Below, in pieces: positions 8,735 to 49,457 of a DNA stretch of 64,000 nucleotides. Position 1 is the stretch's first letter, and every line of letters begins with the position of its first letter. The notes under the pieces are model-generated. The model made no database searches and was not told the DNA's origin. It worked only from the letters and a program-made list of their open reading frames with translations. Source of the DNA: Lysinibacillus fusiformis (lineage in GTDB: Bacteria; Bacillota; Bacilli; Bacillales_A; Planococcaceae); contig NZ_CP041696.1 in assembly GCF_007362955.1 (NCBI RefSeq), positions 62,001 to 126,000 on the forward strand, read 5' to 3'. Both the position numbers and the translations under genes were made by a program.

Positions 8735-8811
8735 GTAGAAGCCAAATAAAAACGAATAGTATCAGGTACTCGCTCTCGCTTCAACTTCTCCCTCCGAAAA
8801 GTTTGCATGCC

Positions 8812-8978
8812 ATCAACTAAGCAGGTTTCCTGACTTAAGCTTCTTTTTTACTTTCGCGCCTTCCCAGGTTACACTAGTGGCATTTGCGATTTCATCAGCT
8901 ATTACAGTAGCGGGGGCTGTATCGGATTCGCACCGATTTCCCTATTATCTCGAATAATATCGAGCACTTATAGATGTA
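8812..8978 (-). promoter_or_regulatory. Cobalamin riboswitch for the cbi synthesis operon
   Basis: The minus strand carries the conserved B12 box AAGTCAGGAAACCTGC (8821-8836) and, upstream, the core GGTGCGAATCCGAT followed by GCCCCCGCTACTGTAA, which are the hallmark segments of the adenosylcobalamin aptamer. The downstream terminator at 8690-8734 is the expression platform. B12 binding should stop transcription of cbiW to cbiG. Confidence 0.95.
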
Positions 8979-9025
8979 TCTATATGAAATTTAGATTGTA
9001 TAAAACGTAATTGAAAACTGTTTCT

Positions 9026-9180: not shown

Positions 9181-9243
9181 AAAGAGATAGCTTATTTATG
9201 GAAAATCATGTTACACTTTGTCGTGAAATCTCACAACTTCATC

Positions 9244-9412
9244 TTTTTTCGGTGCGAAGTGTAGTCATTTCGCTTAAAAGGGAAGCCGGTTCAAGTCCGG
9301 CGCGGTCCCGCCACTGTAATAGGGAGTTTTATAGAGTATGTCACTGTCCAAAGGATGGGAAGGCCTATAAAATGGAGAACTAAAGCCAGGAGACCTGCCG
9401 AAAAATACGTGA
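9244..9412 (+). promoter_or_regulatory. Cobalamin riboswitch for the cobalt transporter operon
   Basis: The closing stem pairs TTTTTTCGG near 9244 with CCGAAAAA near 9398. Inside are AAGGGAAGCCGGTTCAAG, CCGGCGCGGTCCCGCCACTG and the B12 box AGCCAGGAGACCTGCC at 9384-9399, a near-consensus adenosylcobalamin aptamer. It precedes a terminator at 9480 and the cbiM start at 9556, so B12 is expected to lower cobalt import. Confidence 0.96.
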
Positions 9413-9479
9413 TCGTTTCAACCTACGAGGATAGGTGTGCGGCTTGGCAGATTATTATTCTATTTGCTTTTTCAGCTAT

Positions 9480-40917: not shown

Positions 40918-41112
40918 ACAAGAGGCTGACCCAAAAGTAAAAATTCGCGTAGACTCCTGCGGGTAAACAAGAGCACGAGACCCAGTAGGGTGCGTTAAGT
41001 GGAACGAAGACTAAAGTCGTCACGTCCTGTGACAACGCCTTCGTGACCAACATCCTGTTGCCCTGATTCGGCTCGAGTCTTGCCCGCGGAAAGCGTAGCG
41101 GATTTTTACCAT
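40918..41112. repeat. Bacillaceae-type dispersed intergenic repeat
   Basis: Markedly more GC-rich than its surroundings. It runs from GAGGCTGACCCAAAAG through GTAGACTCCTGCGGG to GCCCGCGGAAAGCGTAGCGG, ends that recur widely in Bacillaceae intergenic repeats and can pair (CTCCTGCGGG-type with CCCGCGGAAAG-type). Frames through it lack ribosome sites and are not taken as genes. Confidence 0.6.
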
Positions 41113-46969: not shown

Positions 46970-47884
46970 TTAAGGTAACATTGTCATCCAGCTACCCATA
47001 TGATGAATGGCAATACCCTTGTAACTTTCTGAATTCGCATAATGATGTTGAATGAGCACTAATTGCTTATTCATAAAGTCTTCTCCTTCTTCATAGAAGG
47101 TAATATTTTGCCCTTCACTAGAAGATCCTGTTTCAACGCCTACAACTATTGATTTATTTACTTTGTTTCCATATGCTATCTCATTTTCAATAATTTTGAT
47201 AATCTCTTCAGCGGTATCACGATATGCCATAATCGTAACACTTTCTACTTCGTCAATAACCCATTCAGCTAGAGTTCCGGTCCCATATTGATTGCTATAG
47301 GTGATTTCATCAAACCAAAATGGCATATCTGCCTCAAGAGGAACTTGTAATTGATGTGCCTCCTCTTTTGCTTTGATGAGTATTGCTTGATAAGCTTGGA
47401 TTGTTTTTGCTTGATTTCTCTCCCACCCTGTATTTAAATAAGGCTCTACATCCAGATGAATACCTACAAATCGCTCTGATGTTGTGGCCTTACTATTATA
47501 GGATTTTAACCAATCCATGAACTGATCCAACTCTTTATAGCCTTTAGCTGAAACCCAACTTGAAGCACCATCCAATGCGTACACTTTGATGCCTCTTGCT
47601 GTTGCTTTTTCGATAAAACTTCTATAAGTACTATATGTAATATCATAATTAATTTGTAAATATACTTTGAAAATGTATTTCTCTTCTAAAAAGTTAAGGA
47701 CACCCGCTTCATCTTCGATAAGCATCGCAGTATCCCATACCCATGTCATTCTTTCTTGCATTGGCATCGCATCAGCCTTTCCAAATGAAACACCCAATAT
47801 ACTTACAATAGTTACAACAAAAATAATGACTGATATTAATAGTATTGGCCTTACCATTTCTTGCATCTTCATTCCGTTCGCCAA
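46970..47884 (-). CDS. Secreted or membrane-anchored TIM-barrel-like protein, unknown function
   Basis: A 304-residue protein with one N-terminal hydrophobic helix (RPILLISVIIFVVTIVSILG), then a body with RMTWVWDT, ARGIKVYALDGASSW, FVGIHLDVEPYLN, EADMPFWFDEI and SVTIMAYRDTAEEII. The DxE-type strand and the MAYRD strand resemble glycoside hydrolase-like (GH18-type) barrels, but the enzyme class is not clear. The start may be TTG 47884 or the ATGs at 47872 or 47866; no strong ribosome site is seen. A probable c-di-GMP riboswitch precedes it. Confidence 0.75.
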   Translation of the reverse strand: MANGMKMQEMVRPILLISVIIFVVTIVSILGVSFGKADAMPMQERMTWVWDTAMLIEDEAGVLNFLEEKYIFKVYLQINYDITYSTYRSFIEKATARGIKVYALDGASSWVSAKGYKELDQFMDWLKSYNSKATTSERFVGIHLDVEPYLNTGWERNQAKTIQAYQAILIKAKEEAHQLQVPLEADMPFWFDEITYSNQYGTGTLAEWVIDEVESVTIMAYRDTAEEIIKIIENEIAYGNKVNKSIVVGVETGSSSEGQNITFYEEGEDFMNKQLVLIQHHYANSESYKGIAIHHMGSWMTMLP

Positions 47885-47887
47885 GGC

Positions 47888-47990
47888 TCATAGAATAGAA
47901 CCTGGTAACCTGACAATCCTGTACTTAAAAGTGTTTAGACTCTTGGCTTTGCGTCCTTCCCTTTCGCTGAAGTTTGCCTTTATCAGTAGA
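47888..47990 (-). promoter_or_regulatory. Probable cyclic-di-GMP-I (GEMM) riboswitch
   Basis: The minus strand reads AAGGCAAAC, CAGCGAAAGGGAAGGACGC, AAAGCC, GTCTAAAC and finally AGGTTACCAGG in the order and approximate spacing of the GEMM-I aptamer, including the GCGAAA tetraloop, the GACGCAAAGCC block and the GGTTACC tetraloop receptor. It lies just upstream of the secreted protein gene. I see no clear terminator, so control may be at translation. Confidence 0.82.
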
Positions 47991-48120
47991 TTTTCACTTC
48001 AAATATTACACGGTTAAATTGTCCATGTCTGTAGTACAAATGAATAATTATCTATATAGTAAAAACAAAAATTTCATTCACACAGGTAGAATGATTTATT
48101 TCCCCTAGATTAAAAGAAAT

Positions 48121-48949
48121 AATCGAGTAGGAGGGAGTGATTAACTCCCGACCTCTCGCACCACCGTACGTACGGTTCCGTATACGGCGGTTCAATTAAG
48201 ATGAAAAACGCAAAGTTTCGTAACGCACTTGCAGACTTTTCAGCCCTTGGTTTTCCCAATAGAAATTGCCGAGGGTTCTGTGTAATATGGGGCTATTCGA
48301 AATGCGCCAGTACCCTTTTCGGGTATTTCCCCATTCGTATGCTTTTCTGTAAGGAACTTTAAAACGAATGAGATTTTTGACTCTTGTTCGGGGCTTCTTC
48401 CAATTCTTCCAAAGACACATTCGCAATCTTCTTATAATCCAGCTATCTAATGCCTTAAAGATAGTTGGTGTATCCGCTAACGCAAAATATCCACACCAGC
48501 CAATTAGATATTGGATTAATTTTCGGTCCCGATATTCCATTGGAAATGGCATCTTTCTAGAGGTAATTTCTCGTATTTTCTTCTTCATTCGCTCCAGGCT
48601 TGTTTTCGCAATCCGGACCTTAGTTTCTTTATGCTTCGAGAAACTAAAACCTAGTAACTTTCGGTTCCATGGTCGGTCAACTGCTGATTTCTTTTCATTT
48701 ACTTTTAATCGCAGTTTCTCTTCTATAAATCGCTGCACACTTGCGATTGTACGTTCTCCTGCACGTTTGCTCTTCACATAAATATTGCAGTCATCTGCGT
48801 AGCGAACAAATTTAAAATCGCACTCCGCCGTCTGGTTTCAGGATTTCGACACGACGTACCGGTTGCGGTTTATAGGTTCCCGCTAGAATTTGTGCCTTCT
48901 TCGGGATTAAGGACTTGCACCCTATAGTTCATGCGCATGCCGGGCGCAC
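48121..48949 (-). mobile_element. Degenerate group II intron
   Basis: The minus strand begins GTGCGCCCGGC at 48949 and continues to GGGTGCAAGTCC, a bacterial group II intron 5' end. It ends with the domain V region GGAACCGTACGTACGGTGG (about 48160-48180) and CCTACTCGATT at 48121. Most of domain I and of the maturase gene is missing, leaving about 830 bases instead of about 2 kb. It follows directly the T-run of the cheW-like gene terminator, the insertion preference known for group IIC introns. Confidence 0.88.
48196..48889 (-). pseudogene. Group II intron reverse transcriptase/maturase, internally deleted
   Basis: Residual N-terminal coding near 48889-48820 reads ILAGTYKPQPVRRVEILKPD, the start of the reverse transcriptase domain. 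It then jumps to FKFVRYADDCNIYVKSK, which carries the YADD catalytic motif, and from 48777 runs intact through the thumb and maturase domain (LLGFSFSKHK, YLIGWCGYFALADTP, KGYWRISNSPILHR) to the stop. The junction at 48818-48826 shares GAGTGCGA between both sides and changes the reading frame, so the enzyme is dead. Confidence 0.85.
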
Positions 48950-48983
48950 ATTGAAAAAACGTAGAGGCTCAGGCCTCTACGTT
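48950..48983 (-). terminator. Terminator of the cheW-like gene
   Basis: AACGTAGAGGC pairs with GCCTCTACGTT (arms 48958-48968 and 48973-48983) over a four-base loop, followed on the minus strand by TTTTTTC. The upstream arm lies in the last cheW codons and the stop codon TGA falls in the loop region. The intron begins right after. Confidence 0.88.
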
Positions 48984-49457
48984 TTCTTCTTCATTTTTAA
49001 GCATCTTGTGTAAATAATTAATAATTTCGCGGATACCGTCCAATGAGTTGACAAGTACTTTAGGGTCAACGTATGTAATCATACGATTTTCAAGATTAGC
49101 CACAGCTGTAAAGTAACGTGTTTTTGAATAATTGACAAGCCCCATCTGCTTTAATACCGACTCATCAAAATCAAGAATTTCACGAGCCTCCGTTACGAGT
49201 AACCCATAATTCACAACATCCGTATTTAATACGATGACACGTGCCGATTGTGAATTTGAAGAACGATTGTATAATATACGTTCAAAATCTAGCACAGGTA
49301 CAAGTTCTCCACGGATTCTTGTAAAGCCTAGTAAATAATTAGGTAAATGAGGAATCGGCGTAACATGCTCTAATTTTTCAATCGAGATCGCTTGTTCAAC
49401 TGGAACTGCATACTCCTCTGTTCCACAAGCAAAAACCACTGCCTTTACACTTTCCAT
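48969..49457 (-). CDS. CheW-like chemotaxis adaptor
   Basis: A 162-residue single CheW domain: VVFACGTEEYAVPVEQ, TPIPHLPNYLLGFTRIRGE, VPVLDFERIL and YGLLVTEAREILDFDES. It would couple chemoreceptors to the CheA kinase; it lacks a CheV receiver domain. A GGA site precedes the ATG. It is 25 bases downstream of the peptidase gene, so co-transcription is possible. Confidence 0.9.
   Translation of the reverse strand: MESVKAVVFACGTEEYAVPVEQAISIEKLEHVTPIPHLPNYLLGFTRIRGELVPVLDFERILYNRSSNSQSARVIVLNTDVVNYGLLVTEAREILDFDESVLKQMGLVNYSKTRYFTAVANLENRMITYVDPKVLVNSLDGIREIINYLHKMLKNEEENVEA

Follow-up and report, generated by a model that had tools for sequence, protein, structure and literature searches.

The window analysed here, a stretch of 64,000 nucleotides from Lysinibacillus fusiformis, carries on its minus strand a gene whose product is predicted to be secreted (46970–47857), an aptamer of the c-di-GMP-I (GEMM-I) class with a GAAA tetraloop (47901–47988) directly upstream of it, a likely promoter (48003–48031) and, further upstream, the remnant of a group II intron (48120–48949) that separates this promoter from a CheW-like gene. 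A terminator-like palindromic hairpin lies after the CheW-like gene (48956–48985); it was listed for the plus strand only, but its palindromic form and T run suggest that it also serves the minus-strand CheW-like gene. Elsewhere in the window, two strong cobalamin riboswitches diverge from each other at 8802–8986 (minus strand) and 9233–9416 (plus strand), ∼250 bases apart, and a member of the Bacillaceae-1 small RNA family occupies 40995–41061 (plus strand). Another copy of the Bacillaceae-1 RNA was seen just past the end of the riboswitch-linked gene at locus L034.

The original prediction had placed a cyclic-di-GMP riboswitch at 47866–47990, on the grounds that the GEMM-I blocks appeared in order, and had proposed an Rfam covariance search as a check. 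All these blocks are there, on the minus strand, and the search returned a match to RF01051 (c-di-GMP-I) at 47988–47901 with 64.8 bits, against a gathering threshold of 35, and an E-value of 2e-10 for the window; the alignment spans the full model (1–87 of 87). The range first proposed corresponds to the aptamer plus the leader as far as the candidate start codons. A second aptamer model, built for this analysis, also matches the site. No other c-di-GMP-I match was found in the 4.97-Mb genome when 150 of 309 first-pass candidates were scored. For the c-di-GMP-II class the genome gave no match, in a search that did not recover its controls either. Inspection by eye showed the GNRA tetraloop to be GAAA, and the ligand-contact positions, which we take to be G20, A47 and C92 in Vc2 numbering, to be present as the G before CAAA, the A in GCAAAGCC and the C in GTTACC. 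A G rather than an A at position 20 argues for c-di-GMP over cGAMP, and the ligand of this aptamer would be c-di-GMP.

The likely promoter, CAGACA - 17 nt - TAATAT, was absent from the sites listed by a generic promoter scan of the window; it was recognised by alignment to Lysinibacillus relatives, in which the counterpart reads CAGACA-N17-TATTAT or CAGACA-N17-TATGAT. The intron remnant (minus strand, ends inferred) was delimited from a match to RF00029 (domain V) at 48192–48122, a GIIM (maturase) domain and related copies in the genome, which include eight long matches (72–75% identical) and shorter ones. Its protein is shortened to 193 amino acids, comprising the C-terminal part of a reverse transcriptase with the GIIM domain; domain V and the maturase domain are shared with group II introns, while the window copy is internally deleted. 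Since the remnant lies upstream of the likely promoter, it would be a neighbour of the switch rather than a part of it. A unit in which c-di-GMP controls splicing, formed by riboswitch and intron together, was considered in view of the adjacent RF00029 match and rejected: the intron protein is truncated, the element precedes the likely promoter, and none of 17 further leaders inspected has an intron in the 170 bases next to the aptamer.

The open frame of the gene runs from a TTG at 47884 to 46970, although the true start is likely to be the ATG at 47857, which would yield a protein of 295 amino acids; this start was set by alignment to relatives, several of which have GGAG 9 bases before the ATG and an in-frame TAA just upstream, where the window has CAA. 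By eye, the N terminus is hydrophobic and leads into an AxA-type site, which most of the 26 aligned rows share; the protein is predicted to be secreted. It had been described at first as anchored or secreted and barrel-like: secretion agrees with these features, the sequence shows no C-terminal anchor, and the fold may be a barrel. No Pfam or NCBIfam family scored above cut-off and no PHROG matched. The one solved relative found is 10yv (profile E-value 4.6e-17, homologous over ∼170 residues), named by its depositors ‘Putative GH97 from Cellulomonas fimi’, the host being an actinobacterium; the GH97 label is known from that name only. It shares with the window protein the motifs LDVEP, DxPxW and GxET, which in the protein family read LDVEPYL, DxPFWFDE and GVET and are accompanied by a conserved MxYRD. 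There are 945 relatives with an E-value of at most 1e-5, and none of the 120 listed has a Pfam domain. One of the proteins collected, P0122 from Sporosarcina sp. GW1-11, is tandemly duplicated within a single chain of 553 amino acids.

These features suggest that the protein is a hydrolase of matrix polysaccharides. It might instead be some other secreted protein of the matrix or cell wall, a distinctly less favoured but serious alternative: Pfam, NCBIfam and PHROG give no family assignment, and many relatives are named ‘amidase’ in databases, with no supporting Pfam model among those listed. Against this stand the profile match to a putative glycoside hydrolase, the conserved acidic residues in the LDVEP, DxPFWFD and GVET motifs, and the clustering of the gene with a family 2 glycosyltransferase (GT2), described below.

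To see how far the arrangement extends, genome contigs were scanned with the 26-row protein alignment; this gave 310 relatives, of which the best 80 were kept. The analysis-built aptamer model, derived from 25 aptamers with the window's and other Lysinibacillus copies included, recognised an aptamer immediately 5′ of the gene in 73 of these 80 loci. Tested on 20 gene loci, among them that of the window, the Rfam model found its aptamer at 18; the two misses, L033 and L050, were also without a match to the analysis-built model, as were L052 and L054. The match at L109 has a shortened 3′ end. Among the 80 loci, those without an aptamer were L057, L078, L089, L095, L128, L132 and L133. In L057 and L078 the aptamer has been lost and the platform sequence and the gene have been kept; opening the Shine-Dalgarno (SD) site in these two leaders costs 1.7 and 7.7 kcal/mol, respectively. 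Across 61 genomes, that of the window included, the aptamer class was present in 47 and the protein in 22 (the match in G054, one of the 22, being weak; E-value 8e-4). The pairing of aptamer and gene is not local to the window strain; it is common across related bacilli, as judged from the best 80 of 310 relatives. A chance resemblance to the aptamer, which is extremely improbable, was rejected on the E-value in the window and on the recurrence of the aptamer directly upstream of the same gene.

The leaders 3′ of the aptamer mostly read like CAGG-NNCATTCTGTGAGCC-NN-GGCTNACAGAATGGAGG, and can fold into a hairpin that covers the SD site (the sequestor). Pairing was counted over an alignment of 71 of the 75 leaders, L064 and L083 being dropped as duplicate or near-duplicate and L109 and L112 because of indels, and was compared with shuffles that preserve the make-up of each column, not the relatedness of the leaders. 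In the sequestor, 85.7% of cells were paired, against 80.4% in the shuffles and 32–53% when the partners were slid; two-sided changes were seen in 51 cells, compared with 22 in the shuffles (none of 500 reaching the observed value), and affected 10 of the 12 pairs (reached by 32 of 500). Divergent lineages, such as L106 and L123, rebuild the hairpin with different letters (by eye). In the energy calculations, which took in 73 of the 75 leaders (L109 and L112 left out), opening the SD site cost >3 kcal/mol in 68 of 73. The alignment thus shows the SD-covering hairpin to be conserved and strongly covarying across relatives. The original prediction, having noted no terminator and a short distance to the start codon, had favoured translational control. 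This conserved hairpin speaks for it, as does the window scan, which listed no terminator-like site in the minus-strand interval from aptamer to gene and on which a transcription-terminating riboswitch was rejected; the state of the platform in the window itself, dealt with further on, does not.

A competing fold (the antisequestor) was found in which the 3′ end of the aptamer (like GCCAGGUUC) pairs with GAGCC-N-NGGC, taking the aptamer-closing strand and depriving the SD hairpin of its inner portion. It appears in the minimum-energy fold of 5 of 17 leaders, chosen rather than drawn at random (L058, L060, L065, L067 and that of the window). Its pairing reached 82.3%, against 78.7% in shuffles, with 23 two-sided cells against 11.3, neither value being attained in 500 shuffles. 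Other counts are less favourable: the number of two-sided pairs and that of pair types did not beat the shuffles (242 and 117 of 500 did as well), the outer pairs were at 78.4% compared with 77.9% in shuffles, also not beaten, and sliding the partners by one column gave 24 two-sided cells against 23, though only 62.5% were then paired. When partners were swapped among 19 lineage groups, the antisequestor was not significant (18% of permutations were as good). An alternative pairing of an SD-side GGCUNAC with the aptamer's GUGAGCC, considered by eye, was dropped: wherever the printed folds contained a pairing of this kind, the aptamer contributed its 3′ end.

When the aptamer was taken out of play, the cost of opening the SD site rose by >0.5 kcal/mol in 56 of the 73 leaders and fell by more than that amount in 5 (median change +1.5 kcal/mol); the leaders of opposite sign were L072, L129 and L134 (by >1 kcal/mol), together with L083 and L096. 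Shuffled aptamers gave a median effect of 1.00 kcal/mol, as against 1.46 kcal/mol for the real ones, and in 48 of the 73 leaders the real aptamer lay above the mean of its shuffles (Wilcoxon P = 0.0016). With the whole leader free, the SD hairpin was still costly to open (median 5.8 kcal/mol). Given the effect of shuffled aptamers and the persistent cost of the hairpin, equilibrium energies alone do not describe a clean switch. The first three pairs of P1 were formed in 59 of 74 leaders, and in most leaders P1 abuts the SD hairpin without overlap (by eye). Taken together with the competing fold and the energy effect, this abutment points to c-di-GMP as a repressor, helped by the order in which the elements are transcribed, though less strongly than the comparison speaks for the SD-covering hairpin. 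Binding of c-di-GMP would lock the 3′ end of the aptamer, leaving the SD-covering hairpin to form and repressing translation of the secreted protein; without ligand, the 3′ end of the aptamer would pair with GAGCC-N-NGGC, the SD hairpin would be broken and translation could start.

An ON switch, in which c-di-GMP opens the SD hairpin and induces a factor that builds or processes the matrix alongside the polysaccharide, appears unlikely. The clustering of the gene with a diguanylate cyclase and GT2 in the four clusters read makes co-induction plausible, and in Lysinibacillus P1 could reach a few bases into the 5′ arm of the hairpin (by eye). In 56 of the 73 leaders, however, the modelled effect has the opposite sign, and because P1 adjoins the hairpin without overlap in most leaders, formation of the aptamer would not disrupt it. 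These observations are best explained by a c-di-GMP-I aptamer likely acting, in relatives, as a translational OFF switch of a protein predicted to be secreted and likely to cleave polysaccharides, with a platform that has degraded in the window; we put the probability of this reading, taken as a whole, at about one half. Biologically, cells would make the exopolysaccharide at high c-di-GMP and release its hydrolase as c-di-GMP falls, to trim the matrix or leave it.

The platform of the window differs from that of most relatives in that the SD-covering hairpin is not intact. Its 5′ arm, UUCUAUUCUAU (47890–47900, minus strand), is homologous to the covarying helix of the relatives; the 3′ arm, placed by alignment at 47867–47877 (minus strand), contains the degraded SD position and two broken pairs (by eye). 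Where relatives have GGAG the window has GAAG (47870–47867), and among SD-like hexamers within reach of a start codon the best is ACGGAA (47877–47872). Its pairing with the anti-SD core is worth −3.5 kcal/mol. Of the 72 other leaders scored, 71 lie between −5.4 and −9.5 kcal/mol and L124 is weaker still (−3.3 kcal/mol), which makes the window's SD the second-weakest of 73. Opening the site at ACGGAA costs 0.6 kcal/mol, the lowest of the 73 leaders (median 7.2). The original prediction had seen no clear ribosome site here and, the SD being degraded with respect to the relatives, this reflects a real, local loss. The competing fold persists in the minimum-energy structure of the window leader, its 5′ strand being CCAGGUUC (47898–47905, overlapping the 3′ end of the aptamer) and its 3′ strand GAGCC-U-UGG (47881–47889), both on the minus strand and both assigned from that fold and from the pair counts. 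The degraded platform makes switching in this strain doubtful, the intact aptamer notwithstanding, and control by the riboswitch is probably weak or lost here.

The riboswitch of the window may be vestigial, with an aptamer that folds and a gene that is uncontrolled and constitutively expressed at a low level; the odds on this are about even. This is suggested by the low opening cost and weak SD, by an Rfam score for the aptamer that is the lowest of the 18 matches adjoining the gene (64.8 bits versus 72.6–78.2), by a genome in which no match was found, at the thresholds used, to GT2, the HEAT-repeat protein or the ∼1,070-amino-acid protein that accompany the gene elsewhere, and by the locus of the closest relative (74% identical in protein sequence), where the aptamer has been lost and the gene and platform kept. 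On the other side, the conserved positions of the aptamer are intact and the reading frame is undamaged, the competing fold is still present, and the analysis-built model, trained partly on the window copy, scores the aptamer mid-range at 75.0 bits. In addition, genome G014 has no GT2 and yet its aptamer scores 74.3 bits, so that the switch need not decay where the synthase is missing. The question concerns the window strain, and a vestigial copy is compatible with an OFF switch as the best explanation for the family.

The link to the biofilm matrix suspected from the start is supported by the neighbours of the gene in relatives, where a diguanylate cyclase and a glycosyltransferase accompany it in four genomes of three genera. 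Thirteen of the 80 loci (nine Planococcus, three Jeotgalibacillus and one Niallia) have a GGDEF gene next, in the same orientation; its frame opens ≤300 bases from the gene in 12 of these and ∼600 bases away in L116, and in L115 and L129 only the response-regulator part was matched. L069, with a distant GGDEF piece, was left out of the 13, and neighbours differ in the other genera scanned. Four of the 13 loci, from Planococcus, Jeotgalibacillus and Niallia, were read further, and all four show one gene order: the putative barrel gene, a GGDEF-REC gene, the gene for a HEAT protein, and GT2. In Lysinibacillus the GT2 locus is mostly away from the gene (by contig or coordinates), the exceptions being G001 and G006, in which it adjoins a riboswitch-free copy of the gene; among five same-genus GT2 stretches read, two had the gene and three did not. 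GT2 was found in 19 of 22 gene-bearing genomes versus 7 of 39 others (P = 2.7e-7; 61 genomes, relatedness uncorrected) and, within the genus, in 17 of 19 versus 3 of 13 (P = 2e-4). The ∼1,070-amino-acid partner, for which no solved relative was found by sequence, was present in 19 of 22 gene-bearing genomes and in 5 of 39 others. At L151, L152, L153, L154, L155 and L157 the set consists of a match to the GGDEF-REC query, a HEAT-repeat protein, GT2 and the ∼1,070-amino-acid protein without Pfam domain. We regard this set as a candidate exopolysaccharide locus of Lysinibacillus and a related genus, a proposal drawn from gene content. In the window genome GGDEF was matched 18 times and EAL in 11 frames.

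A more tentative extension, to which we would give lower odds than to the OFF switch itself, joins these parts into a device that either makes or cuts the matrix. In many Bacillales c-di-GMP would hold off, at translation, a new family of secreted glycoside hydrolases, in some of them clustered with a diguanylate cyclase and a polysaccharide synthase, so that a single signal would start synthesis and stop cutting; a lineage that loses the synthase, like that of the window, could let the switch decay. For a large protein family, the riboswitch offers a putative specific regulator, along with a likely source of substrate; candidates for both an enzyme that cuts the matrix and an exopolysaccharide locus can be named in bacilli. 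L057 and L078, together with the degraded platform of the window, offer natural variants for studying translational switches of the c-di-GMP-I class.

The riboswitch class is a known one, but no description of the target family or its matrix context was found. Among the openly licensed papers searched, none joins the term ‘c-di-GMP riboswitch’ with Lysinibacillus, or c-di-GMP and riboswitch with Planococcus; the association may nonetheless have been published elsewhere. Switches of the c-di-GMP-I class are described as acting on termination or, through sequesters, on translation initiation, and those of Bacillus thuringiensis as including terminators as well as a ribosome site that enters a stem-loop on addition of c-di-GMP (PMC11218506). 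The switches Bc1 to Bc5 of that species belong to the same aptamer class and likewise have a host in the Bacillales (PMC11218506, PMC4759541, PMC4933901). Bc1 is described there as having two terminators and preceding mcpE (PMC11218506), whereas none is listed at the window locus and the target is different; the target also differs from that of Bc2, which is reported to precede a collagen adhesion gene.

The exopolysaccharide associated with PssZ of Listeria is linked to c-di-GMP, and we know of no riboswitch for pssZ. PssZ itself is a GH126 exopolysaccharide glycosidase (PMC7479077), a role like that proposed for the window protein, which, unlike PssZ, has given no match to any hydrolase family. 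With respect to the RF01051 class as a whole, the window locus stands apart in its degraded platform, and in a target family and a conserved SD hairpin that were not found described; with that class it shares the sequence blocks, the GAAA tetraloop, the covariance score and the position in a 5′ leader.
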